The notes beneath the pieces are model-generated. The model did not search any database, was not told the origin of the DNA, and was given only the letters and a program-made list of their open reading frames with translations. A stretch of 64,000 bases of DNA from Alistipes senegalensis (lineage in GTDB: Bacteria > Bacillota > Clostridia > Oscillospirales > Ruminococcaceae), in assembly GCA_023665275.1 (NCBI GenBank), contig JAMPEF010000003.1, forward strand, positions 1 to 64,000. The letters run 5' to 3'. Below are positions 9,714 through 29,876 of the stretch, piece by piece. Every line of letters starts with the position of its first letter. The stretch's first letter is position 1. The position numbers were made by a program, and so were the translations under genes.

Positions 9714-9742
9714 AAAAAGCCCGGTAAAAATCGGGCTTTTTC
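9714..9742 (+). terminator. Intrinsic terminator
   Basis: AAAAAGCCCGG and CGGGCTTTTT arms around TAAAAAT-type loop; placed directly after the gene remnant. Confidence 0.8.
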
Positions 9743-9835
9743 TTATTTCATTATTGACATATTTAAAATAATATGATATAATTCTATATGTAAATTTATA
9801 TGTAAAAATTAAAAATTCAAGGACGGTGTACGGAA

Positions 9836-11772: not shown

Positions 11773-11967
11773 ATGTTGCAGAAATTTGCAAAACTAATTG
11801 ATGTAAAGTCAATTATAACACTGTTTTTAACATTTATTTTCGGCGTTCTGGCACTGAAAGGCAGTGTGTCGGCTGACCAGTTTCTGACCATATTTACGAC
11901 GATAATCGCTTTTTATTTCGGCACACAGTACGAAAAAATCAAATCAGAAAAGGAGAATGAAAGATGA
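11773..11967 (+). CDS. Phage-type holin-like small membrane protein
   Basis: A 64-residue protein with two closely spaced hydrophobic stretches (about residues 12-30 and 35-50) and a charged C-terminus (YEKIKSEKENER), the general plan of small holins. The start follows GGGGTGA. The next gene, a peptidoglycan peptidase without a signal peptide, starts four bases before this stop (ATGA overlap), the classic holin-endolysin arrangement. No other phage genes are nearby, so this may be a domesticated remnant. Confidence 0.55.
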   Translation: MLQKFAKLIDVKSIITLFLTFIFGVLALKGSVSADQFLTIFTTIIAFYFGTQYEKIKSEKENER

Positions 11968-12461
11968 ACTCACCATATATGGGGAAATTTCAGGTCACAC
12001 AGGAATTTAAAGGACAGTCGCACGACGGCTTAGACCTTGTAGGACTTGACAGCAAGGAAATTCATAGCACCGTAAACGGAACAGTCCACTATGCAGGCTG
12101 GGAAAATTCCGACAATCATTCACAGGGATTCGGACAGTTCGTCTGCATAAAGGGTACTGACGCAAGATTTTATTATTTCGGACATCTTTCAGAAATCAGA
12201 GTAAATGTCGGTGATGCGGTGAAAATTACGGACGTTATTGGTATTGAGGGCAACACCGGATATTCAACAGGAAGTCACTGTCATTATTGTGCAAGACCTC
12301 AGTTTTCTTACGGAAATGCCTTGAATATAAGCGAAATATCAGGCATTCCGAATGTTTTAGGCATATATGATGACGGTTACGCAACTATCATCAGAAATTC
12401 TGTAAATGTCACACTTTCTGCCAATGGCACAACTTACACGGGTTCGCTGACAGAAAAATAA
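11964..12461 (+). CDS. M23 family metallopeptidase (endolysin-like)
   Basis: A 165-residue LytM-type zinc endopeptidase. The zinc ligands are visible: HDGLD (HxxxD) near residue 17-21 and HCHY (HxH) near residue 110, with the usual GxxxVxIxDVIGxxGNTG stretch between. It lacks a signal peptide, so it would need the preceding holin-like protein, or lysis, to reach the wall. The family cuts peptide cross-bridges in peptidoglycan. A short C-terminal extension (residues about 135-165) may bind wall. Confidence 0.82.
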   Translation: MNSPYMGKFQVTQEFKGQSHDGLDLVGLDSKEIHSTVNGTVHYAGWENSDNHSQGFGQFVCIKGTDARFYYFGHLSEIRVNVGDAVKITDVIGIEGNTGYSTGSHCHYCARPQFSYGNALNISEISGIPNVLGIYDDGYATIIRNSVNVTLSANGTTYTGSLTEK

Positions 12462-12500
12462 TAAGAATTTTTATTTTATAAAATAACGGAGTATTTTTAA

Positions 12501-13346
12501 ATGAATAATAAATATCAAAATTCTACATATGCTCTCAGAAATAATGAACTCGTTTACATTGAAGACGTCGAAAGCGGATTGTCTTGTAATTATGTTTGCC
12601 CTGCCTGCAAGGGAAAACTTATCGCCCGAAAGGGAAACAAGAACTCACATCATTTTGCACATCAATCCGCTGATTGCGGTAAAGGTTATGAAACAGCTTT
12701 ACATCTTCTTGCAAAAGAAATTTTGTCAGAAGCAAATGAAATAACTACTCCACCTGTTTATATTGAAACTGATTCACATTATCCAAATATAAAATTATTT
12801 CCAGAATTAAAAATAAAAATCGACCATGTTGAACTTGAAAAGAAAATTGATAATATTATTCCAGATATAATTTTAACTTCTGGAAACAGACAGTTAATTA
12901 TAGAAATTAAAGTCACTCACAAGGTTGACGACAAAAAACTTGAAAAAATACGAAATACCGGCATATCGGCAATTGAAATTGATTTAAGCAAATATGACAG
13001 AATAATCTCAAAATCGGAACTCAAAGAGTTTCTTATAAAAAAAAGATATAGATATACAAAAAAATGGCTGTATAATCGTTTGCAGGAAAAATATTATAAT
13101 GCATTATGTGATTTTTCAGAGGAAAAACTGGCTTACGAATTTTGTTGTCAATATCTTGTGGAAGATTGCCCTGTTTATAAAACATATACACGTCGTATTG
13201 AGAAATGTATGGCTTGTATGTATCTGATAAAAATCAACTATAATAAATTTGAAAGACCTAAAGGTATTATATGTTCAGGAAAAAACAGAATTTCTACAAA
13301 AGAAGATTTAATTAAATGTGTAAAAAAGCAGTTTCCTGACAAATAA
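12501..13346 (+). CDS. CoiA-like protein: zinc finger plus PD-(D/E)xK nuclease domain
   Basis: The 281-residue protein has the CoiA arrangement. Residues 29-59 form a zinc-ribbon-like unit (C29, CPAC at 33-36, HHFAH at 50-54, C59). Residues about 60-145 hold the nuclease core with PD at 121-122 and ExK at 135-137 (IIEIKVTH). The C-terminal part is basic and Cys-rich (C217/C218, CMAC). CoiA proteins act on DNA during competence, and relatives occur next to mobile and defence genes. Here it points at a prokaryotic Argonaute gene with only 24 bases between, sharing a terminator. AT-rich coding suggests horizontal origin. Confidence 0.8.
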   Translation: MNNKYQNSTYALRNNELVYIEDVESGLSCNYVCPACKGKLIARKGNKNSHHFAHQSADCGKGYETALHLLAKEILSEANEITTPPVYIETDSHYPNIKLFPELKIKIDHVELEKKIDNIIPDIILTSGNRQLIIEIKVTHKVDDKKLEKIRNTGISAIEIDLSKYDRIISKSELKEFLIKKRYRYTKKWLYNRLQEKYYNALCDFSEEKLAYEFCCQYLVEDCPVYKTYTRRIEKCMACMYLIKINYNKFERPKGIICSGKNRISTKEDLIKCVKKQFPDK

Positions 13347-13361
13347 TCAGGAAACTGCTTT
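13326..13361. terminator. Bidirectional hairpin between coiA-like and pAgo genes
   Basis: A 15-bp perfect stem (AAAGCAGTTTCCTGA / TCAGGAAACTGCTTT) with a 7-base loop. The left arm encodes the last codons of the CoiA-like protein. T-rich sequence follows on the plus strand. Confidence 0.75.
13329..13357 (+). repeat. 29-base palindromic repeat, copy 1
   Basis: Identical over all 29 bases to the reverse complement of 28233-28261, including the non-palindromic 7-base loop. Both copies act as terminator hairpins. Confidence 0.85.
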
Positions 13362-13370
13362 AATTATTTT

Positions 13371-15611
13371 TTACAGGAAATATAATTTATTATATACTTT
13401 TCCTTTTGGAATATATTCACTTGCTTTACAGATTTTATCCGCATAATATGTAGTCATGGGAAGTCGGGTACTTTGAGTTGAACCGACATGAAGTTCTGAA
13501 AGTGTATAAATTTGTATTACAATTTCATTCATGGAAAGAGCGCCGTGTTTATGTACGATATTAAGCGGTTGAGGCGCACCACCATAACTTGCTTGTCTTT
13601 GTGTGGTCACAATAAATGCTTCATTATCTTTTATGATGCACACCGATGAATCGGGATTCATTCCGTTCTGATTATGCATATCAAGAAGTCTTTCGGAAAT
13701 ATTTTTCTTGACTTCCACAATATCGTAAATTATTGATTTCCTTGAAAAATATTCTTCATACCATTCATCAGATTCATTTGAAAAACCGTCTCTGTGAATG
13801 ACAATATGTTTTGGATAGCGTCCGTTTCTGTCTTTGTATTCTATAAGAATATTATCAAAAATATCAGTAAGTATTTTTCCGTCTATTTTTTCACCTGACT
13901 GTGCTTTTTCAGTTGTATAATATCCGAGGAGATTTCCGTTGCCGTCAAAACAGACGGAACAGGCAGGATAATGAATGCCTTTAGACTGCATACCCACATC
14001 AATACCGACAAAACAATCAATATCGCTGAAAGGCTGTGACAGAATCCACGGAATACCGCCAGATTTACTTAGTATTCCGAGTGCTATATTCTGTAAATAA
14101 GATTTAATATCCTTTTCTTTTCCGGTTTTTAATTTATTCAGAAAGTTTGTTGAAATCATTTGTGATGTCATATTGATTTCCGCAAAAACTTTTTTAAAAA
14201 TATCATAACGTGAGGTATCACAGGAATATTCATTATCATCACTTTCCATTGGGACAAAACAAATTATAAAATTAGTTTTCTTACTTTTGGAGATTTTCCT
14301 TGCTGTTTCTTTCAATATAAGTTCATCATAATTCTGCTTATATGAATAGGACTTCTGCATAAATATTGCCGGAATCAATGGTTTTTTCAGATATATATCT
14401 TCAATGCCGTTTATCTTTCCTTTTGTCAGATAATCCATAATAGCAACAGCAGCCTGACGGCATTCAGTAATTTTTTCCTCAAAATACATAAAGCTGATAC
14501 ATAGTTCACTCGGCAGACGATAAAAACCATTTTCCTTTGAAAAAGTTTTATATTTTTCACTATATTTAATTTGGTGGTTATTCCCGACTGAAAGCAATGG
14601 CATATTAATATCAGCATTATGAACAGAATAGCCAAACTCTCTTGCGGTTACCGGTTCAGGAATTATAATTCCGTTTGTCTGTGAATTAAGGTCGCCGATA
14701 AATTCAAGCATAATCTGAAGTCTTTCACACATAGGAAGTTTCATCATTTTATCAGCCTCTCTTGAAAATTTCCTGTCAAAATCAGCAACTTTTTCACGTC
14801 TGAAAACAGGTACAAGAGACTGCGGAATATATTTACTTTCACCGTGTTTGCTGTCATAAACAATGACAGTTTTTGTATTATCGGGGTCAATTCCTTTAAG
14901 TCTATATGGTGCTTGCTTATTCCAGTAATTATAAAGGTTAAAACCGCTTTTGCTTGGTTCATTTATGTTTCTGTCAAGGACTTTTAAAACGCTGTAAGTC
15001 TGATTATACCCCTGCCATGTGCATTTTACTTCCATTCCGATGACATTTCTTCCCTTTTGCATATAATCATATATAGTAGATTTCGTATAATATTCTGTAG
15101 AAATATCAAATCCGACATATGAAGTACCATCAGGCATTACTTTTATCTGAATTTTAAATTTACGGAGAAGTATTATATTTAGATTGTTTTTCGGAGTGGG
15201 TATATCAAGATAAAAATAATGTTCTTCATGACAGTCGTATTTTTTTAGTTTAAAAATATAGTGAGATATATAATACTCAATCCATGCAGAATATAAATTC
15301 GTGTTTTCTGAAACAGGTATTTCAATTTTATCAACAAATTCAACTTCTGCACTTTCCTTTGAAAAATCAGGCATGAATTTTATTTCATCATAAGTATAGA
15401 TATAATTTTCTTTTTTATCGGAATAAGCGAACATTTTTTCATTATATCTGACATAATTTTTAAAATTACTTATTATTTTATAACGTACTGAATTATTTAA
15501 TTTAACAATATCTCTGTTATAATTAGAAATATTTTTCACTCTGTATCTGAAAAAAGACTTACCACTTACCGGATTTTTAAATCTGAAATAACAAAGACGA
15601 ATATCATTCAT
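13371..15611 (-). CDS. ago: Prokaryotic Argonaute, long type with intact catalytic tetrad
   Basis: A 746-residue protein with the full N-PAZ-MID-PIWI layout. PAZ covers about residues 185-272 (YNYWNKQ, SLVPVF). MID is at about 440-525, with Y469/K473 and Q484 as candidate 5'-phosphate pocket residues. PIWI runs from about 530 to the end and carries the DEDD tetrad: D538 (FVGIDVG), E574 (QSGEK), D608 (HRDG) and D725 (YYADKIC). Size and spacing closely resemble mesophilic clostridial Argonautes such as that of C. butyricum, which use DNA guides to cut DNA. The ATG at 15611 follows AAAAGGAG; a TTG three bases earlier is possible. It has its own consensus promoter. A slicer role in DNA defence is inferred. 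Confidence 0.92.
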   Translation of the reverse strand: MNDIRLCYFRFKNPVSGKSFFRYRVKNISNYNRDIVKLNNSVRYKIISNFKNYVRYNEKMFAYSDKKENYIYTYDEIKFMPDFSKESAEVEFVDKIEIPVSENTNLYSAWIEYYISHYIFKLKKYDCHEEHYFYLDIPTPKNNLNIILLRKFKIQIKVMPDGTSYVGFDISTEYYTKSTIYDYMQKGRNVIGMEVKCTWQGYNQTYSVLKVLDRNINEPSKSGFNLYNYWNKQAPYRLKGIDPDNTKTVIVYDSKHGESKYIPQSLVPVFRREKVADFDRKFSREADKMMKLPMCERLQIMLEFIGDLNSQTNGIIIPEPVTAREFGYSVHNADINMPLLSVGNNHQIKYSEKYKTFSKENGFYRLPSELCISFMYFEEKITECRQAAVAIMDYLTKGKINGIEDIYLKKPLIPAIFMQKSYSYKQNYDELILKETARKISKSKKTNFIICFVPMESDDNEYSCDTSRYDIFKKVFAEINMTSQMISTNFLNKLKTGKEKDIKSYLQNIALGILSKSGGIPWILSQPFSDIDCFVGIDVGMQSKGIHYPACSVCFDGNGNLLGYYTTEKAQSGEKIDGKILTDIFDNILIEYKDRNGRYPKHIVIHRDGFSNESDEWYEEYFSRKSIIYDIVEVKKNISERLLDMHNQNGMNPDSSVCIIKDNEAFIVTTQRQASYGGAPQPLNIVHKHGALSMNEIVIQIYTLSELHVGSTQSTRLPMTTYYADKICKASEYIPKGKVYNKLYFL

Positions 15612-15649: not shown

Positions 15650-15678
15650 ATTATATCATGTTACTTATTATATGTCAA
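15650..15678 (-). promoter_or_regulatory. Consensus promoter of the Argonaute gene
   Basis: On the minus strand TTGACA (15678-15673), 17 bases, TATAAT (15655-15650). A perfect match, about 38 bases upstream of the ATG, suggesting steady expression. Confidence 0.85.
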
Positions 15679-15746: not shown

Positions 15747-15831
15747 TCAACTCCATTGTAAAAAATTGTTTTACAAATATATCAATTGCCTGACAAAAAT
15801 GCAATACAAAACCATTTAAATATGATAGAAT
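15747..15831 (+). promoter_or_regulatory. Xylanase promoter element, copy 1 (GH10 gene)
   Basis: TCAACTCC at 15747, an inverted repeat TTGTAAAAAATTGTTTTACAA, then a 40-base block 15771-15810 ending TGCAATACAAA. A TAGAAT -10 (15826-15831) lies 17 bases past AATACA, a poor -35. The layout matches 20537-20620 upstream of the GH30 gene, pointing to activator-dependent transcription. Confidence 0.65.
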
Positions 15832-15894
15832 TAAAGAAATTCCAAGAACGTTATTTTAAAATGATAAATGATTATACATTCAGGAGGGCTTGAA

Positions 15895-18800
15895 ATGCGT
15901 TTAAAAAAATTTACTTCCATTATGACCGCACTTGTATGCAGTGTGGGAATAGCTTCATATCTTCCCACGATTGCGGAAAAGACTTTTGCTATAGAACAGG
16001 TAAATAACGATTTTGAAGTAAATTATGATGGCTGGTACGGTAACAGTGATGCAGTTCGTCTTACAGCGGAAAGCGGAACGGGCTATAACGGTTCAAGGGG
16101 TATGACTGTTTCCGGACGTACTTCCTCAGATGACGGTGCAAGTTCGTCAAAGGGCTTTTATCTTTCCGGTGCTGTTGATTATAATTACAGTCTTAAGGTT
16201 TACAGCGAAACAGACGAAACTTTTCATTTAAGTCTGCTATGCATTGACGAAACAACAGGTACTGAGACGGTCATAAATCTTGCCGACAAAACGGCGAAAG
16301 CAGGTCAGTGGACTGAACTTTCTGCAAATTATAAAGCTCCGGCAAACAGCTATGAATTTAGACTCACTCTCACAACGGACAGTACAAATGATTTCAGTTT
16401 TGACGATGTGAAAATCACTTCCAGAAGCGGATTTTCAGCAGAAGCAGCAGGTGAAAAAGGTCTTAAGGACGAATTTGCAGACTATTTCAGAGTTGGAAAT
16501 ATTCTCAATGGCGGAACTGTAAAAAATTCTGCAATCACTGCAAACATTATCAAGGATTACAACAGCATTGAATGTGAAAATGAAATGAAACCCGATGCAA
16601 CACTTGTACAGTCACAATGCAGTGGTACGGATATTGCAGTTTCACTTAACAATGCGGCGGCTATCATGGATTTTTGTGTACAGAATAACATTGCTATGCG
16701 TGGTCATACTTTTGTATGGCACAGTCAGACACCAGTATGGTTTTTCAAAGAAAATTTCGACGCTAACGGCAATTGGGTAACGCCTGATGTCATGGATAAG
16801 CGTATGGAAAGTTATATAAAAAATATGTTCTCAGCAATAGAACAGCAGTACCCACAGCTTAATCTTTACGCTTACGACGTCGCCAATGAATGTATAAGTG
16901 ACGACTCTAACAGAACGGCTAATTTCGGCGGTGCAAGAGAACCAGGCGATAATTATGTTGAGGGTGGAAAATCCGGCTGGGTTGCTGTCTATGGTGATAA
17001 TAGCTTTGTGGAAAAAGCCTTTACTTATGCAAGAAAGTACGCTCCGGATGGCTGTGAACTCTACTACAATGACTATAACGAATACTGGGACCACAAGAGA
17101 GATACTATATATAATATGTGTAAGTCGCTTTACGGAAAAGGACTTCTGGACGGTGTCGGAATGCAGTCACATATACCCGCAAATGCTACCGGTTTCGCCG
17201 GAACTGATTCATATATTGAGGCTATGAAAAAATATCTCTCAATCGGTTGTGATGTTCATATTTCGGAACTTGATATATCACTTGAAAGCGGTAAGTATTC
17301 ACTTCAGGATCAGGCAGACAAATATAAGGCTATTTTTAAGTCTGCTATGGACTGGAATAAAAACCCTCAGTCTGACGGACGTGTGACGCTTGTTGCAATA
17401 TGGGGACCTAATGACGCTAATTCATGGCTTATAGAGGGCAGTGACGGACTTCTTTATGATAAAAATAATCAGCCAAAAGCTGCATATACTGCACTTATTT
17501 CAATGATTCCACAATCCGAATGGGGTGACGGAAGCAAGTATCAGGGTGGTAGTGAAATCAAACCCGTTGAACCTAATGAATACGGTTGGTATTTTGCAGA
17601 TGGTTTTGAAGGAAGTACTTGTGACTGGAGCATAAGAGGTTCGGGAGAAGTCCTCACAAGCGGAAGAACTGCATATGTTGGTGACGAGTCACTTCTTGTT
17701 AAGGACAGAACGGACGCTTGGAATGGTGCTTCAAAAACTCTTAACAGGGCGTTTGTTGCCGGAAATGAATATAGTTTCAGTGCAAATGTAATGTATTTCG
17801 ACGGCGATGCAACAGACAAATTTTATCTTAAATTACAGTATACCGACGCAAACGGCGATACACAATACGATACTATATCAGAGGCAACAGCAGTAAAGGG
17901 TGAATGGGTACAGCTTGCAAACAGGAATTATAAAATTCCGGCAGGTGCTTCTGGTATGCAGATTTATGTTGAAACTGCTGAATCAACAAACAATTTCTAT
18001 ATTGACGAGGTTATAGGTGCAGTCGCCGGAACTACTATTATAGGAGCAGGTGAATCACAAAACGTCATTCTTGGTGACATAAATTCCGATGGCGTAATTA
18101 ATTCATTTGACATGGTTCTTGCAAGAAAAGGAATTGTCAACGGTTTCAACGATTCAGCAGAAAAACTCGCCGCTGACGTTGACCAGAATGGTGAATATAA
18201 TATCAATGATGCTGTTTTAATTCAGAAGTTCATTCTCGGACAAATAAAAGATTTTCCGGTTGCTGAAAAAACATCAAATCCGATAAAAGACACTCCGGCT
18301 GTAAATCCGACCGCATACATGAAAGACGCTGAAAAATCACTTTCAGAGTACGCTCTTGATGGCTGTACGGAAGAATATTCATGGGTTGAATATGGTACAC
18401 TTAAAAAATATCAGTATTATTCAACAACACGTGAAAGACTTACAAATGTAAATGTTCTTCTTCCCCCTGGATATTCTGAAAATGAAAAATATCCCGTTTT
18501 ATATGCTATGCATGGTTACTCGGAAGATGAAGATTCACTTGTTGCAATGGGAAAAGTCCGCAATATGCTTGGAAATCTTATCTCAACGGGTGACGCTGAA
18601 AAAATGATTGTAGTTTTCCCGTATATCTACACCAGCAAAACTCAGGAAGCCTGCTCCGGTCTTGACCTTGCAAACTCCCTGAATTACGATAACTTTATAA
18701 ATGACCTCACAACAGACCTTATGCCGTATATCAACAGCAATTTTTCTGTCAAGACGGGTCGCAACAATACTGCTATAACAGGCTTTTCAATGGGTGGACG

Positions 18801-19140
18801 TGAATCGCTTTTCATAGGTCTTACACGTTCTGATTTGTTCGGCTATGTCGGAGCTGCCTGCCCAGCCCCCGGACTTACTCCCGGTGCAGACCCGAGTATG
18901 CACCCCGGTCAGCTTCAGGAAAATCAGCTTAAGCCAGCCTATGATATACCATACCTCCTTATGATTACGGGCGGTGGAAACGATGGTACAGTAGGAAATC
19001 AGCCGTCATTATATCATAACATTCTTAATAATAACGGCATTAATCACATATGGCATTCCGTAACTTCCGGTGAACATGATGCGTCAAGCGTTCAGCCACA
19101 TTTTTATAATTATCTCAGATTTATATTCAAGGTAAATTAA
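15895..19140 (+). CDS. Cellulosomal bifunctional xylanase: CBM22-GH10-CBM22-dockerin-CE1
   Basis: A 1081-residue secreted enzyme. Start chosen at ATG 15895 (MRLKKFTS) behind AGGAGGG. Order: signal peptide (1-30); CBM22 (about 38-175); GH10 xylanase (about 190-545) with acid/base E332 (DVANECI) and nucleophile E458 (HISELDIS); a second CBM22 (about 560-715); dockerin (about 722-790; GDINSDGVINSFDMVLARKG and DVDQNGEYNINDAVLIQKF); and a CE1 esterase with S965 (GFSMGG) and H1061 (GEHDAS), probably feruloyl or acetylxylan esterase. It would cut xylan backbones and remove ester side groups while docked to a scaffoldin. The last CBM22-dockerin block is nearly the same as in the GH30 enzyme. Confidence 0.95.
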   Translation: MRLKKFTSIMTALVCSVGIASYLPTIAEKTFAIEQVNNDFEVNYDGWYGNSDAVRLTAESGTGYNGSRGMTVSGRTSSDDGASSSKGFYLSGAVDYNYSLKVYSETDETFHLSLLCIDETTGTETVINLADKTAKAGQWTELSANYKAPANSYEFRLTLTTDSTNDFSFDDVKITSRSGFSAEAAGEKGLKDEFADYFRVGNILNGGTVKNSAITANIIKDYNSIECENEMKPDATLVQSQCSGTDIAVSLNNAAAIMDFCVQNNIAMRGHTFVWHSQTPVWFFKENFDANGNWVTPDVMDKRMESYIKNMFSAIEQQYPQLNLYAYDVANECISDDSNRTANFGGAREPGDNYVEGGKSGWVAVYGDNSFVEKAFTYARKYAPDGCELYYNDYNEYWDHKRDTIYNMCKSLYGKGLLDGVGMQSHIPANATGFAGTDSYIEAMKKYLSIGCDVHISELDISLESGKYSLQDQADKYKAIFKSAMDWNKNPQSDGRVTLVAIWGPNDANSWLIEGSDGLLYDKNNQPKAAYTALISMIPQSEWGDGSKYQGGSEIKPVEPNEYGWYFADGFEGSTCDWSIRGSGEVLTSGRTAYVGDESLLVKDRTDAWNGASKTLNRAFVAGNEYSFSANVMYFDGDATDKFYLKLQYTDANGDTQYDTISEATAVKGEWVQLANRNYKIPAGASGMQIYVETAESTNNFYIDEVIGAVAGTTIIGAGESQNVILGDINSDGVINSFDMVLARKGIVNGFNDSAEKLAADVDQNGEYNINDAVLIQKFILGQIKDFPVAEKTSNPIKDTPAVNPTAYMKDAEKSLSEYALDGCTEEYSWVEYGTLKKYQYYSTTRERLTNVNVLLPPGYSENEKYPVLYAMHGYSEDEDSLVAMGKVRNMLGNLISTGDAEKMIVVFPYIYTSKTQEACSGLDLANSLNYDNFINDLTTDLMPYINSNFSVKTGRNNTAITGFSMGGRESLFIGLTRSDLFGYVGAACPAPGLTPGADPSMHPGQLQENQLKPAYDIPYLLMITGGGNDGTVGNQPSLYHNILNNNGINHIWHSVTSGEHDASSVQPHFYNYLRFIFKVN
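17572..18260 (+). repeat. CBM22-dockerin module, copy 1
   Basis: About 690 bases nearly identical to 21988-22680, from EPNEYGWYFADGFEGSTCDW through the dockerin. Indicates a recent module duplication or gene conversion. Confidence 0.85.
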
Positions 19141-19224
19141 ATTCACTGATTGACTTATCTGCACAAAAAAGAAAATCAGTTGTTTAATAGGGGGATTGTT
19201 TCCTTTTCGGTGACAGTCATAGAA

Positions 19225-19254
19225 AAACTGTGGTGAAATATCCACGGTTTTTTT
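19225..19254. terminator. Terminator between GH10 and AraC genes
   Basis: AAACTGTGG / CCACGGTTT arms with an 8-base loop and T run on the plus strand; T-rich on the minus strand as well, so it can serve both convergent genes. Confidence 0.75.
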
Positions 19255-20476
19255 ATCTGCCTATGTGATTTTTGTCTCTGTATTCTTTAGGAGTAATTCC
19301 GGTAATTTCCTTGAATACCCTTGTGAAATGGCTTTGTGAGGAAAACCCCAGATAATCGCTTATCGTCACAAGACTTTTATTTGTTTCGTAAAGAAGTTCC
19401 TGTGCCTCCTGAATTTTCTTCAGCTTGATAAAATCCGAAAGATTCATACCAGTTTGTTTTTTAAATTCCGTTGTTATACCGCCACGGCTTTTCCCGAAAT
19501 AATCCGCAATATCGGAAGTTTTAATAGCCTCAGAAATATGACTCCGGATATATTTTGAAATTTCAGTGACCATTTTTGAATTTTGTCCGTTATACTGCCG
19601 GAGTTTTTTTACTCTGTCGGCATAGTCAATTATCATATGATACTGTAAATTTTTTATACGGTCAATATTATCAAGGGATTCACATTTTCTGATATACATT
19701 TCCTCAATTGAAAAAATTTCGTCAACGTCCAGACCGCTTTCAATTGCAGTACGTGCCATAATAGTTTCCAGTTTTATAAAGAAGTTTTTGTTATGCCGGA
19801 GCAGGTGCGGTGCAAGATTTCCGGAACTTACAGACGGAATTTTTGTCGCACCGTCAATCAGACCTTCAACGTCACCATTCATTACTTTTTTAATCATATC
19901 CCGTTCAATTGCATAGGAACGGGCATTATTCATGAAAAAACTTTCACCCGTATAGGAAATTTCATTTTCCTTGATGTCTGAAGAAATATCATTCTGTTCA
20001 GAATTTTTTATCCTTATATCCGATATATTGCACATTGTTCTGTTTACGGAAAAATTATACAGAATAATTGCCTGAATAAGCGTATCAAGATGTATTCCGG
20101 AAAGGCTTTTCATGGACGATGTGAAAAGCGGAATATCATTTTTTTCTATTCCAAGCATAAAACCAAGACGATTAAATTCATGGTCTGATAATCTGATTTC
20201 GCCTACAGGTCCAGTTATAAATTTGTACTCACCACAGTTGACAATACCATAATAAAAAGTACTTTCATGAACATAGTAGCTTATTTGTTCGTGTTTCTGA
20301 ATTATTTCATCAAAGCACAATGAAACAGGGTCGGCAATAAGATTTGCAGTTGAATGAAAGAATATAAGTTCATTTCCGTTGTAAAGCCTTACGGGAAAAC
20401 CGAACATATTAGCAAACTGTCTGCTTATGTAAATCAGTTCTTCCCGTGTGATTTCAGAATTTTTTTCATAATTCAT
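19253..20476 (-). CDS. AraC family transcriptional regulator, likely xylanase regulator
   Basis: A 407-residue regulator. The N-terminal two thirds form a sensor-like region (FANMFGFPVRLYNGNEL at the start) resembling ligand-binding domains found on AraC proteins of Firmicutes. The last hundred residues contain the two AraC helix-turn-helix units (IADYFGKSRGGITTEFKKQ and ISDYLGFSSQSHFTRVFKE, ending ITPKEYR). It lies between the two xylanase genes, divergent from the GH30 gene, and the two xylanase promoters share a long element, so it is the obvious candidate activator. The inducer is not known. Confidence 0.9.
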   Translation of the reverse strand: MNYEKNSEITREELIYISRQFANMFGFPVRLYNGNELIFFHSTANLIADPVSLCFDEIIQKHEQISYYVHESTFYYGIVNCGEYKFITGPVGEIRLSDHEFNRLGFMLGIEKNDIPLFTSSMKSLSGIHLDTLIQAIILYNFSVNRTMCNISDIRIKNSEQNDISSDIKENEISYTGESFFMNNARSYAIERDMIKKVMNGDVEGLIDGATKIPSVSSGNLAPHLLRHNKNFFIKLETIMARTAIESGLDVDEIFSIEEMYIRKCESLDNIDRIKNLQYHMIIDYADRVKKLRQYNGQNSKMVTEISKYIRSHISEAIKTSDIADYFGKSRGGITTEFKKQTGMNLSDFIKLKKIQEAQELLYETNKSLVTISDYLGFSSQSHFTRVFKEITGITPKEYRDKNHIGR

Positions 20477-20536
20477 AGTTTACGCTCCTTCAGAAAATAT
20501 TTTATGTTTATATTATACTACATATCGTGAAAAATT

Positions 20537-20620
20537 TCAACTCCGTACTGAAAATATCATTACAAAAATATCATTTCATTGACAAACGTGCAATACAAAT
20601 ATTTTAATTTATGTTAGAAT
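20537..20620 (+). promoter_or_regulatory. Xylanase promoter element, copy 2 (GH30 gene)
   Basis: TCAACTCC at 20537, then a 40-base block 20560-20599 (TTACAAA ... TGCAATACAAA) sharing about 33 of 40 bases with 15771-15810, and TAGAAT at 20615-20620. Distances from the block to the -10 are identical in both copies. Confidence 0.65.
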
Positions 20621-20661
20621 ATACTAAAACTATGTGAACGATTTTTTAACAGGAGGTAATT

Positions 20662-22698
20662 ATGAAAAACAAAAAATCTGTAAAAAGAATTTTATCTTTA
20701 TTTACATCATCTGCTATGCTATTTGCGTTGACATCTGCACTGCCTAAACAGAAAAACGCTCTTGCGGCAAGCGAAGTTGTAATTGACATTAACAAGGAAT
20801 ATCAGACAATAAGAGGTTTCGGCGGTATAAATCACCCTGAGTGGACCGGTGCAGACCTTTCCGAATCACAGCGACAGACAGCTTTCGGCAACGGTGAAAA
20901 TGAATTAGGTCTTACTATATTACGTGTATTTGTCAATCCCGATAAAACCCAGTGGAATAAAGCACTCCCGACGGCACAATTTGCAACAAAAATGGGGGCT
21001 ACTGTTTTTGCGTCCCCGTGGGAGCCACCGGCAAATCTTGCTGAATCGGGTGGAAGTAACGGCAAACTTCATCTGCCAAAATCAAATTATGGTGCTTATG
21101 CACAACACCTTAATGATTTTGGTACTTACATGAAAGATAACAACGTTGACCTTTATTCAATATCAGTCCAGAATGAACCGGACTATGCTGAAGAATGGAC
21201 TTACTGGTCAACAGACGAAACAACCGATTTTATCGCAAACTATGGCGACAAGATAACAAGTACACGGCTTATGTCCCCGGAGTCTTTCCAGTATGCTCCC
21301 GAAGATGCCAAATGGGTAAGCGACGGCGGAAAGAAATTCTACCGTAAAATATTGAATAACGAAAAGGCTATGGCAAATTGTGACCTTTTCGGCACGCATA
21401 TGTATGGTACGTCAAGAGACTGGATGGATTTTCCCGACCTTGAAAACTCCGGCAAGGAAATATGGATGACGGAAGTATATGTACCGAACAGTGATGCCGA
21501 TTCCGCTAACCGCTATCCTGAGGCTATAGAAGTAGCGGAAAATATCCATAATGCTATGGTTGTCGGCAATATGAGTGCTTATACATGGTGGTATATCCGC
21601 AGAAGTTACGGTCTTATGACGGAGGATGGCAATATAAGCAAGCGTGGCTACTGTATGGCACAGTATTCAAAATACGTCCGTCCTAATGATATACGTGTTG
21701 ACGCTACAGAACAGCCGGAAGATGATGTTTTTGTTTCTGCATATAAGGGTGACGACAATCAAGTAACTATAGTCGCAATAAACAAGGGATACAAGGAATA
21801 TACACAGAATTTCAGAATAGACAATGAAAATATTTCGGACGTTGACCGTTACAGAACTTCCGCAAATGAAAATATTGCTCCCACACTCAACATGGAGTTT
21901 GATGGCGATAATTTCTATGCACAGCTACCTGCTAACAGCGTTTCGACGTTTGTTGTCACACTTTCGGAAGAACCCGAAAAACCTATTGAACCTAATGAAT
22001 ACGGCTGGTATTTTGCAGATGGTTTTGAAGGAAGTACGTGCGACTGGAACGTAAGAGGTTCGGGAGAAGTCCTCACAAGCGGACGTACTGCATATGTCGG
22101 CAGTGAATCGCTTTTAGTCAAGGACAGGGCGAAAAACTGGAATGGTGCTTCTAAAACCCTTAATACGAAAGCCTTTACAGCCGGCAATGAATATAGTTTC
22201 AGTGCCAACGTGATGTACTTTGACGGCGAACCGACAGATAAATTTTATCTTAAATTACAGTATACCGACAAAAACGGTGACGCACGTTACAGTACTATTG
22301 CAGAATCTACCGCAATAAAGGGTGAATGGGTACAGCTTGCAAACAGGAATTATAAAATTCCGGCTGATGCCTCAGATATGCAGATTTACATTGAAACAGA
22401 AAATTCAACAAGCAATTTTTATATAGATGAGGTTATAGGTGCAGTCGCCGGAACTACAATTATCGGAGCAGGTGAATCTAAAAATATAATTCTCGGCGAT
22501 ATAAATTCAGATGGTGTAATAAATGCGTTTGATATGGTTCTTGCAAGAAAGGGAATTGTTGACGGTTTCAGTGATTCAGCAGAAAAACTCTCCGCCGACG
22601 TCGACCAGAGCGGTGACTACAATATTAATGACGCTGTTTTAATTCATAAATTCATTCTCGGAAAGATAAACGAATTTCCAGTTACTGAAAAAAACTGA
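20662..22698 (+). CDS. Cellulosomal glucuronoxylanase: GH30 (subfamily 8 type)-CBM22-dockerin
   Basis: A 678-residue secreted enzyme. Signal peptide 1-34; GH30 barrel plus side beta-domain to about residue 435, with acid/base E172 (SVQNEPDY) and nucleophile E271 (MTEVYV). The WWYIRRSYG motif (R313/R314) is the arginine region that in GH30_8 glucuronoxylanases recognises the methylglucuronic acid branch, so a substrate of glucuronoxylan is likely. CBM22 spans about 443-590 and the dockerin about 605-672 (GDINSDGVINAFDMVLARKG, DVDQSGDYNINDAVLIHKF). It complements the GH10/CE1 enzyme. AGGAGG precedes the ATG. Confidence 0.95.
   Translation: MKNKKSVKRILSLFTSSAMLFALTSALPKQKNALAASEVVIDINKEYQTIRGFGGINHPEWTGADLSESQRQTAFGNGENELGLTILRVFVNPDKTQWNKALPTAQFATKMGATVFASPWEPPANLAESGGSNGKLHLPKSNYGAYAQHLNDFGTYMKDNNVDLYSISVQNEPDYAEEWTYWSTDETTDFIANYGDKITSTRLMSPESFQYAPEDAKWVSDGGKKFYRKILNNEKAMANCDLFGTHMYGTSRDWMDFPDLENSGKEIWMTEVYVPNSDADSANRYPEAIEVAENIHNAMVVGNMSAYTWWYIRRSYGLMTEDGNISKRGYCMAQYSKYVRPNDIRVDATEQPEDDVFVSAYKGDDNQVTIVAINKGYKEYTQNFRIDNENISDVDRYRTSANENIAPTLNMEFDGDNFYAQLPANSVSTFVVTLSEEPEKPIEPNEYGWYFADGFEGSTCDWNVRGSGEVLTSGRTAYVGSESLLVKDRAKNWNGASKTLNTKAFTAGNEYSFSANVMYFDGEPTDKFYLKLQYTDKNGDARYSTIAESTAIKGEWVQLANRNYKIPADASDMQIYIETENSTSNFYIDEVIGAVAGTTIIGAGESKNIILGDINSDGVINAFDMVLARKGIVDGFSDSAEKLSADVDQSGDYNINDAVLIHKFILGKINEFPVTEKN
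21988..22680 (+). repeat. CBM22-dockerin module, copy 2
   Basis: Near-identical partner of 17572-18260; differences are mostly synonymous or conservative. Confidence 0.85.
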
Positions 22699-26681: not shown

Positions 26682-27440
26682 ATGAAAAAGTTACTTTCTG
26701 TTAAAAATATATTGATTTCTTTTGCTGTACTGATATTGATATGGCAGTTGATTTATACAATCGGCGAATTTAATAAAGCATTGTTTCCGTCGCCGTACCA
26801 TGCAGTTTCAGCACTGAAAGAATTATTTACAGAAAAATCCGTTTTAACTGATATAGGTGCAAGTATGGCAAGATTTGCCGTAGGATATATAAGTTCCGTG
26901 ATATTTGCCGTATTTCTGGGACTTATTCTCGGCAGACTGAAAAATATCTTTCAGTATATAAATCCTGTTATACAGCTTTTGCGTCCGATTTCGCCGATGG
27001 CTTGGCTACCGTTTATTGTGTTGTGGTTTGGAATTGGCGATATTCCGGCTGTAGTAATAATTTTCATTGCGGCATTTTTTCCGGTTCTGCTGTCGACTGT
27101 TTCAGCAGTCGGAAAAATTGACCCTATTTATACGAAAGTTTCAAAAAGTTTCGGAATAAAACAGCCACAGTTAATGTGGAAAATTATTTTACCGGCATCT
27201 TTTCCACAGATTGCAAACAGTATACATCTTGCACTTGGTACAGCGTGGGTATTTCTTGTAGCTGGCGAAATGGTCGGCGCACAGTCGGGGCTTGGCTATC
27301 TGATTATCGATTCAAGAAATAATCTCCGTGCTGATACGCTTATGGCAGTAATTATAATAATAGGTCTGATTGGACTTCTGCTTGATACGGCACTGGGACT
27401 GCTTGAAAAACAAATCCTGAAAACATGGGGTGAAAATTAA
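26682..27440 (+). CDS. ABC transporter permease (SsuC/TauC type)
   Basis: A 252-residue inner-membrane permease with about six helices and the binding-protein-dependent transport signature (SFGIKQPQLMWKIILPASFPQI, the EAA loop that contacts the ATPase). LWFGIGDIPAVVIIF is characteristic of the nitrate/sulfonate/taurine permease family. It starts 15 bases after the binding protein with AGGTGAT as ribosome site. Confidence 0.93.
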   Translation: MKKLLSVKNILISFAVLILIWQLIYTIGEFNKALFPSPYHAVSALKELFTEKSVLTDIGASMARFAVGYISSVIFAVFLGLILGRLKNIFQYINPVIQLLRPISPMAWLPFIVLWFGIGDIPAVVIIFIAAFFPVLLSTVSAVGKIDPIYTKVSKSFGIKQPQLMWKIILPASFPQIANSIHLALGTAWVFLVAGEMVGAQSGLGYLIIDSRNNLRADTLMAVIIIIGLIGLLLDTALGLLEKQILKTWGEN

Positions 27441-27441
27441 T

Positions 27442-28212
27442 ATGTATATTGAAATTCAGAACGCTGGCAAGAAATTTATTCAGAACGGCACGGAATTTAC
27501 TGCATTGGAAAACGTTTCACTTTCCATTGAAAAAGGTGAATTTATCTGTCTGCTTGGTCCGTCCGGCTGTGGAAAAAGTACCTTGCTGAATGCAATTGCA
27601 GGTTTTGAACCCGTCACGGAGGGCAGTATTAAAATTGATGGAAAAGAAGTAAAAGAGCCATCAGTAAAAAATGTCACGATTTTTCAGAATTACGGACTTT
27701 TACCATGGAGAAATGTTCTGAAAAATGTTGAATTAGGTCTTGAGTCAAAAAAAATTCCGAAAGATGAACGTAAAAAAATTGCTGAAAAATACATTGATTT
27801 AGTCGGATTGTCAGATTTCATAAACTCCCACCCCCGACAGCTTTCCGGCGGTATGCAACAACGTGTTGCAATTGCAAGGGCATTAGCCGTTGACCCTGAT
27901 ATTATTTTCATGGACGAACCATTTGGGGCATTGGACGCTATAACAAGAATTAAACTTCAGGACGATATACGGGCGATTTCAAGAGATGAGAAAAAAACAA
28001 TTATTTTTGTCACTCACGACATTGAAGAAGCGGTTTATCTTGCGGACAGAATTGTTGTCATGACACCAAATCCGGGCAAGGTAAAAAGTGTTGTTAGTGT
28101 GCCGATACATGGCTACAGAGACCGTACAAGTGGTGATTTTCTGCACGTCAGAAATAAAATTTTCGAAATATTTAAAATGAAATATGAACCCGATATTGAG
28201 TACATAATATAA
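27442..28212 (+). CDS. ABC transporter ATP-binding protein (SsuB/TauB type)
   Basis: A 256-residue ATPase with Walker A (GPSGCGKST), Q-loop (IFQNYGLLPWRN), signature (LSGGMQQRVAIARAL), Walker B (IIFMDEPFGALD) and the switch His (VTHDIEEA). ATG 27442 is one base past the permease stop and follows GGGGTGA. It powers the importer and ends the CODH-like operon. Confidence 0.94.
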   Translation: MYIEIQNAGKKFIQNGTEFTALENVSLSIEKGEFICLLGPSGCGKSTLLNAIAGFEPVTEGSIKIDGKEVKEPSVKNVTIFQNYGLLPWRNVLKNVELGLESKKIPKDERKKIAEKYIDLVGLSDFINSHPRQLSGGMQQRVAIARALAVDPDIIFMDEPFGALDAITRIKLQDDIRAISRDEKKTIIFVTHDIEEAVYLADRIVVMTPNPGKVKSVVSVPIHGYRDRTSGDFLHVRNKIFEIFKMKYEPDIEYII

Positions 28213-28227
28213 TAATTCAGTCATAAT

Positions 28228-28266
28228 TAAATCAGTTTCCTGATTATTTGTCAGGAAACTGATTTT
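28228..28266 (+). terminator. Terminator of the CODH-like/ABC operon
   Basis: AAATCAGTTTCCTGA / TCAGGAAACTGATTT with a TTATTTG loop and T-rich tail. Confidence 0.85.
28233..28261 (-). repeat. 29-base palindromic repeat, copy 2 (inverted)
   Basis: Reverse complement of 13329-13357, identical at all 29 positions including the loop. Confidence 0.85.
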
Positions 28267-28322
28267 TCTTTATGCTAAATAAAAAAGTTTCATATGCAAT
28301 CATATGAAACTTTCAACTATGG

Positions 28323-28395
28323 CAGGGGCAGAAGGACTTGAACCCTCGGCACGTGGTTTTGGAGACCACTGCTCTACCAACTGAGCTATACCCCT
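28323..28395 (-). tRNA. tRNA-Trp(CCA)
   Basis: Minus-strand cloverleaf: AGGGGTA acceptor arm with TGCCCCT, D arm GCTC/GAGC, anticodon loop CTCCAAA giving CCA, T arm GAGGG-TTCAAGT-CCTTC. Discriminator G; CCA tail not encoded. Confidence 0.95.
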
Positions 28396-28558
28396 ATTTG
28401 ATTTATTTAATTGTCATGTCCCTTACAACGTATATTATTATATCACGCTTTTCCGGATTTGTCAAGGGATTTTATAAAATTTTATCTTTTAATTATATTT
28501 TTGTGATAAACGCTGTATTTTCTGTAAAAAATGCGTCATAATTTGTAAATTAATGCTA

Positions 28559-28587
28559 TTGACAGGCAGTACAAAAACGTGTATAAT
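28559..28587 (+). promoter_or_regulatory. Promoter of the GntR-ABC operon
   Basis: TTGACA at 28559-28564, 17 bases, TATAAT at 28582-28587; a perfect consensus overlapped downstream by the operator. Confidence 0.85.
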
Positions 28588-28607
28588 GTATATATAGTAT
28601 ATATACA
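28587..28607 (+). promoter_or_regulatory. GntR-type operator palindrome
   Basis: TGTATATATA-G-TATATATACA, a perfect 21-base inverted repeat starting in the -10 box. Position fits autorepression by the YtrA-like regulator encoded 15 bases downstream. Confidence 0.7.
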
Positions 28608-28621
28608 ATTTGAGGTGAAAT

Positions 28622-29005
28622 ATGAATATTATTATTTCCAACTCAGCAGGTGAGCCTATTTATGAACAGATTTCCCGACAAATTAAGTCTCAGATTATGG
28701 ACGGAACACTTAAGGAGGGTGAGGCTTTACCGTCCATGCGCTCGCTTGCCCTCGCACTGCATATCAGCGTCATCACTACAAAACGTGCCTATGAAGAACT
28801 CGAAAGAGACGGCTTTATTGAGTCGTACACCGGAAAGGGTAGTTTTGTAAAGGTACAGAATAAGGAGTTTCTGCTTGAGGAGTGCCGACGGCAGACAGAA
28901 GAACTTCTCACACAGGCTTGCGAAAAAGCTAAACGGGGTGGTGTTTCGCTTGAGGAAATGAAAGAAATTCTTGATATAATTTACGGAGGAAATGAATATG
29001 ACTGA
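28622..29005 (+). CDS. GntR family regulator, YtrA subfamily
   Basis: A 127-residue repressor: winged helix N-terminus (EPIYEQISRQIKSQIMDG, LPSMRSLALALHISVITTKRAYEELERDGFI) and the short C-terminal helical tail of the YtrA subfamily, which has no large ligand domain. Family members repress ABC transporter operons that respond to cell-wall antibiotics. The ABC-2 exporter genes follow with overlaps. A perfect palindrome in the promoter is the likely binding site. Confidence 0.92.
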   Translation: MNIIISNSAGEPIYEQISRQIKSQIMDGTLKEGEALPSMRSLALALHISVITTKRAYEELERDGFIESYTGKGSFVKVQNKEFLLEECRRQTEELLTQACEKAKRGGVSLEEMKEILDIIYGGNEYD

Positions 29006-29876
29006 TTACAAAAATGCCATAGAAATAAATAATCTGACCAAAAAATATGACGGCTTCACGCTGGATAACATCAGCTTTAGTGTGCCAAAAGGCTCTATTA
29101 TGGGCTTTATCGGACAGAATGGTGCTGGTAAAACCACTACAATAAAAGCACTCCTGAATATTATAAGTAGGGACAGTGGCAATATTAAAATTTTCGGCAT
29201 GGATAACATCAGAAACGAACTCGAAATTAAGGAAAATTTGGCTGTTGTTTTCGATGAACTACCCATACATGACGCACTTAATATTAAAAATATAAACATA
29301 ATCATGAAAGATATTTTTAAAAAATGGAACGAAACAGTATTTTTTAATTACGTGGAGCGTTTCGGTCTGCCTGTAAAAAAGAAAATCGGTCAGTTTTCAA
29401 AGGGTATGAAAATGAAACTCCAGATAGCTATAGCACTTTCCCATGACGCTAAACTACTTGTAATGGATGAGGCGACAACCGGTCTTGACCCTGTTGTAAG
29501 AAATGAAATTCTTGATATGTTTCTTGAATATCTTCAGGACGAAAACAACAGCATTTTAATGTCTTCGCATATCACGACAGACCTTGAAAAAATCGCCGAC
29601 AGCGTGACTTTTATCGACAAGGGAAAAATACTTCTTACCGGCTATAAGGACGATATTTTAGAAAGTCACGGGCTTATCAAATGTACGGAAAATGAATACA
29701 GAAATATTGATAAATCGGACTTTATCAGTGCAAGAATAAATGATTTTGGTGTTTCTGTAATGGTTGACGACTTTCAAACAGCACAGCAGAAATATTCCGG
29801 ATATATCGCCGAAAAAACCACTCTTGAGGAAATAATGCTTTACTATGTAAACCGTCAGAAAGGGGAGTGGTCATAA
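28998..29876 (+). CDS. ABC transporter ATP-binding protein (ABC-2 type exporter)
   Basis: A 292-residue ATPase: Walker A (GQNGAGKTT), signature FSKGMKMKL (degenerate LSGGQ, common in this family), Walker B (LLVMDEATTGLDP) and switch His (SSHITTDLEK). A C-terminal extension follows from about residue 215. Start ATG 28998 was chosen because GGAGGA sits seven bases upstream; an ATG at 28992 is too close to it. Overlaps the regulator stop by eight bases. Works with the two downstream permeases. Confidence 0.93.
   Translation: MTDYKNAIEINNLTKKYDGFTLDNISFSVPKGSIMGFIGQNGAGKTTTIKALLNIISRDSGNIKIFGMDNIRNELEIKENLAVVFDELPIHDALNIKNINIIMKDIFKKWNETVFFNYVERFGLPVKKKIGQFSKGMKMKLQIAIALSHDAKLLVMDEATTGLDPVVRNEILDMFLEYLQDENNSILMSSHITTDLEKIADSVTFIDKGKILLTGYKDDILESHGLIKCTENEYRNIDKSDFISARINDFGVSVMVDDFQTAQQKYSGYIAEKTTLEEIMLYYVNRQKGEWS

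Follow-up and report, generated by a model that had tools for sequence, protein, structure and literature searches.

Several mesophilic Argonautes that use DNA guides have been described. CbAgo from Clostridium butyricum has been reported to reduce plasmid content and to counteract phage, its guides depending both on the catalytic activity of CbAgo itself and on nucleases of the cell (PMC10269773). CpAgo (Clostridium perfringens) and IbAgo, both from human gut bacteria, are described as purified proteins with DNA-guided DNA cutting at 37 °C (PMC6796838), PrAgo from Pseudobutyrivibrio ruminis as a characterised mesophilic DNA-guided Argonaute (PMC11458871), and KmAgo as taking guides of either nucleic acid, DNA or RNA, against targets of either kind (PMC8945025). 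Here we analyse an Argonaute (Ago) gene in a 64-kb stretch of a Ruminococcus genome (contig JAMPEF010000003.1, positions 1 to 64,000; hereafter the window). We conclude with considerable confidence that it encodes an active CbAgo-type (long-A) Argonaute without an operon partner, which would be guided by DNA and clear invading DNA, and whose gene probably spreads as a single-gene module. The direct basis is the protein family, the catalytic and guide-pocket residues, the promoter, the lack of a common neighbour, a patchy distribution and unrelated loci; from CbAgo and CpAgo we infer the kind and source of the guides, cleavage and the role in defence.

The features that carry this reading are as follows:

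13371..15611, minus strand: Ago gene, a CbAgo-type long prokaryotic Argonaute of 746 amino acids (aa), N-PAZ-MID-PIWI, with predicted DEDD tetrad D538/E574/D608/D725
14064..14207, minus strand: codons 469-516, with putative guide 5'-phosphate residues Y469, K473, Q484, N508 and K516, aligned to CbAgo
15650..15678, minus strand: perfect consensus promoter TTGACA-17-TATAAT with extended TG, upstream of Ago

The reading frame is intact on the minus strand, from an ATG at 15611 to a stop at 13373-13371 (746 aa), and the plus-strand reading of 13371-15611 is riddled with stops. The first-pass annotation had proposed a full-length prokaryotic Argonaute here; its coordinates were right, and the strand, which it had not given, is minus. 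In the source genome (2,910,430 bases, 94.89% complete) this gene is the sole PIWI match.

The protein is very probably a long-A prokaryotic Argonaute of the CbAgo/CpAgo branch. The PADLOC pAgo profile PDLC02389 matched it at 7.8e-184 over residues 1-746 (profile positions 1-733 of 733), and CbAgo matched at 7.2e-125. Against solved Argonautes, CbAgo/CpAgo gave bit scores of 421 and 403, followed by KmAgo at 119; this closeness is read from match scores, the trees built here covering the Ruminococcus copies and not the named Argonautes. CbAgo (PDB 6qzk) is collinear with the window protein (748 versus 746 aa), with 274 of 668 aligned residues identical and 153 of 302 from residue 440 on, where the DEDD and Y-K-Q-N-K positions are alike. 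The two differ in genus and genome and in a divergent N-terminal part, the phmmer alignment beginning at residue 61. CpAgo (PDB 9jh7, 9jh8; 751 aa) is also among the nearest solved proteins, whereas KmAgo (PDB 8xhs), another long pAgo, is more distant (match 2.5e-33, best stretch 504-730). IbAgo and PrAgo are likened to the window protein by description, not by sequence.

Pfam detects PIWI only (2.5e-25). The N, PAZ and MID parts, which have no Pfam match, appear to be present from a profile alignment to CpAgo and CbAgo that spans positions 4-745 and from a structural match covering model residues 20-738, the model being of low confidence. All four acids of the proposed tetrad, D538, E574, D608 and D725, align with the CbAgo catalytic positions 541, E577, 611 and D727 (541 and 611 being alanine in the solved mutant), their spacings are 36/34/117 in the window protein and 36/34/116 in CbAgo, and the tetrad is invariant in seven of seven aligned proteins. 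One point weighs against the structural side of this assignment: the predicted model is poor (mean predicted local distance difference test score, pLDDT, 56.9; predicted template modelling score, pTM, 0.39) and too weak to speak to the clustering of the four acids, which is therefore suggested by alignment. The residues Y469, K473, Q484, N508 and K516 align with CbAgo Y472, K476, Q487, N511 and K519. The YKQTNK motif defines the YK-type guide 5'-phosphate pocket (PMC6299218); the placing of N508 and K516 in it is our own assignment, with the T position left out. Thus the earlier claims of an intact tetrad and of a length and catalytic spacing near those of mesophilic clostridial Argonautes held, as did the assignment of the host to Ruminococcus, and the alignment with CbAgo that had been proposed as a check found tetrad and guide-pocket residues kept, with CbAgo/CpAgo nearest.

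The same residues bear on a different view of the protein, in which guide binding would protect the cell mainly without cutting, either by blocking or through the recruitment of other nucleases. Inactive NgAgo is reported to retain part of its action against phage, with comparable findings cited for CbAgo (PMC9040764). With the tetrad intact in the window protein and invariant across the aligned proteins, we regard protection of this kind as very improbable.

For an active, DNA-guided Argonaute the sequence of events would be as follows. The gene would be transcribed from its own promoter, and the MID and PAZ domains would hold short 5'-phosphorylated DNA guides, with which the PIWI DEDD site could cleave complementary DNA that is single-stranded or locally unwound. 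The main sources of guides would be DNA present in many copies or broken (plasmids, phages), acted on by cell nucleases, possibly AddAB, and by Ago itself, and the net effect would be the removal of invading DNA. Two observations weigh against the AddAB step. RecBCD is reported to shape CbAgo guide loading but to be dispensable (PMC10269773), so that AddAB is proposed here as a possibility; and the full-length AddA-like gene of the source genome scores 691.4 bits, under the curated cut-off of 707.65.

Relatives of the gene are patchily distributed. Ago matches were found in 6 of 125 genus genomes, the source genome counted. Four of the other genomes hold full or nearly full copies, identical to the window Ago at 75% (G094), 73% (G102), 72% (G091, cut at a contig end) and 64% (G122). 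With the window Ago these make a set of five Ruminococcus copies, 60-75% identical among themselves. Matches in the wider samples numbered 4 of 396 for the family (the source genome, G122, G142 at 39% and a weak one in G191, 3.2e-4), 1 of 394 for the order (the source genome) and 2 of 391 for the class (the source genome and G1158, 37%). In the sixth genus genome, G108, the match consists of two Ago fragments in different frames near a contig end (locus L017, contig G108:C41, 6995-7638; 41-42% identical, query residues 124-328). No Ago match follows past query residue 328 though the contig continues, and this is apparently a broken copy of a more distant Argonaute.

Among plasmid records, 43 of 72,556 matched, every one below 60% identity; viral contig scans gave no Ago relative, and 1 of 50,697 phage records matched. 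That record (locus L013, MT835890.1, 1-15833), submitted under the title 'Bacteriophage sp.' (UNVERIFIED), encodes an Ago 37% identical to the window Ago, with UreF, urease beta and gamma subunits and a DNA polymerase IV-type gene. It looks like a mislabelled bacterial chromosome, and carriage by phage or plasmid was rejected.

This distribution also bears on whether an active DNA-guided nuclease of this type might serve mainly in housekeeping, such as completing replication or processing breaks, instead of in defence. TtAgo, SeAgo and LrAgo are reported to help cells finish replication or division; for SeAgo and LrAgo this was seen in E. coli with gyrase inhibited (PMC10269773). A core role sits badly with so few carriers in the genus and the family sample, and with the unrelated loci described below, and we consider it unlikely.

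The loci were compared by blastn of the window against each copy. Similarity ran over window positions 15709-13375 for G094, 15678-13357 for G102, 15683-13389 for G091 (to the contig end) and 15611-13366 for G122. Similarity between Ruminococcus Ago loci thus spans roughly the promoter plus the gene, and the loci are unrelated. Identities of the RNA polymerase protein RpoB and of Ago are out of proportion: between the source genome and G102 they are 0.824 and 0.732, and between the source genome and G091 0.973 and 0.716. Ago has a lower GC content than its fetched flanks in two of the four other genomes, G102 and G122; in G094 and G091 it does not. Spread of the gene within Ruminococcus as a module of one gene is probable, and transfer between species is likely, though not proved.

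More tentatively, a 2.3-kb unit of promoter and Ago only might make up the entire mobile defence module of Ruminococcus, carrying its own consensus extended -10 promoter from species to species and among unrelated loci, and needing only housekeeping nucleases for its guides; we hold this to be possible, with the balance somewhat against it. Several results count against such movement. Alignment scores over the 400 nt upstream exceeded 100 shuffles for G094 and G102, not for G091 and G122, and downstream scores were above shuffles in none of three comparisons. In an approximately unbiased (AU) test, the RpoB-like grouping G000+G091+G094+G122 is not rejected by the Ago data (p-AU 0.136), so that descent along the species tree is compatible with them and the tree gives no proof of transfer. 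No clean empty site was found among eight loci with similarity to the flank that bears a neighbouring glycoside hydrolase (GH10) gene. Similarity to this flank ends at window 15756-15793 in seven of them and at 16006 in the eighth, with no similarity to the window listed past that point, so that the sequence there differs; one of the eight is a second copy in the source genome, and some loci end soon after. FastTree joined G102 and G122 (0.879), whereas in a more careful tree this fork is unsettled, the joining not being rejected (p 0.241).

The promoter was examined separately. The first-pass annotation had credited the gene with its own perfect consensus promoter; the perfect match is present, but it is not distinctive, as the window holds eight perfect TTGACA-17-TATAAT promoters against 0.03 expected. 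Strong consensus promoters are thus common in this stretch. A consensus promoter lies at -64 to -68 in four of the five Ruminococcus Ago copies, the window copy counted, and the fifth, in G122, has a degenerate form of it at -67 besides a near-consensus promoter at -271. Since such promoters are common, their presence at Ago copies alone is no proof of travel with the gene, and the shared consensus may have arisen independently, a further point against movement of promoter and gene as one unit. The G091 leader is also similar to window 9737-9799 (77%, 66 columns), another spacer that bears a promoter.

Downstream of Ago the window shows two further features:

12501..13346, plus strand: CoiA-like neighbour gene, 281 aa, convergent to Ago (Pfam CoiA_N, 3.1e-10), probably not a partner
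13325..13361, no strand: perfect 15-bp inverted repeat where the CoiA-like gene and Ago converge, likely a shared terminator

Upstream of Ago, and divergent from it, is the GH10 enzyme gene, which includes a dockerin. Because one neighbour is convergent and the other divergent, Ago has no same-strand partner at this locus. Window open reading frames (ORFs) starting in 1-40000 were compared with seven other Ago loci (L003, L013-L018), three of them below 8 kb. No neighbour near Ago was common to the window and these loci, or among the loci themselves; the only proteins other than Ago in common were two pairs of ABC proteins, at window 27430-29876. The absence of an operon partner noted earlier thus stands for the window locus and is matched by the lack of a common neighbour in the loci compared, some of which are short contigs.

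The CoiA-like gene could, with Ago, form a two-gene system acting on incoming single-stranded DNA. The two genes adjoin, share the terminator-like hairpin and both have a low GC content, 31.5% in Ago and 29.6% in the CoiA-like gene, where the window as a whole has 38.8%. They are convergent, however, and form no operon. CoiA-like matches occur in 8 of 125 genus genomes, weakly in two, and the source genome is the only one of these that is also among the six Ago genomes, the chance of at least one common genome being 0.33. We therefore rejected a partner gene for Ago, and a two-gene system with CoiA is, in our judgement, highly unlikely. The CoiA-like protein gave a weak PADLOC match to DruB (1.6e-4), and PADLOC gave no match in seven other neighbours of Ago. 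A search for Csn2 gave no matches, but its controls gave none either.

At other loci, Ago adjoins an EcoRI-type adenine methylase in G102, and about 3 kb beyond lies a gene for a phage-type integrase; in G122 it stands after tRNA-Pro and ahead of rve and DDE transposase ORFs. An ORF of 76 aa that matches PIN7 weakly, under the cut-off, lies 61 bp past Ago in G122 (L016, 2941-3171), followed by the transposase ORFs; none was seen beside the other Ago copies compared. In the window, the plus strand at 11773-13346 carries, towards Ago, a holin-like ORF (Pfam match under the cut-off), an M23 peptidase and the CoiA-like gene, a row that is possibly a lysis-type remnant. On the other side, 15868-22698 holds the GH10 gene, which also encodes a carbohydrate-binding module (CBM), the dockerin and an esterase, then an AraC-type regulator and a CBM-dockerin gene with GH30-type matches; the two enzymes resemble each other over about 700 bp.

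The window Ago is a new example of a known enzyme family, not a new kind of system, and it opens no new mechanism. The earlier view that no gut ruminococcal Argonaute has been characterised holds only narrowly: in the open-licence literature we found no paper on a ruminococcal Argonaute (subscription papers lying mostly outside the search), but CpAgo and IbAgo from the gut and PrAgo of P. ruminis have been characterised. An intact, apparently partner-free Ruminococcus Argonaute joins the mesophilic DNA-cutting enzymes of the CbAgo/CpAgo group. The five full or near-full copies from Ruminococcus form a set for comparing properties inside one genus, and their patchy distribution allows a defence role to be tested between carriers and non-carriers.
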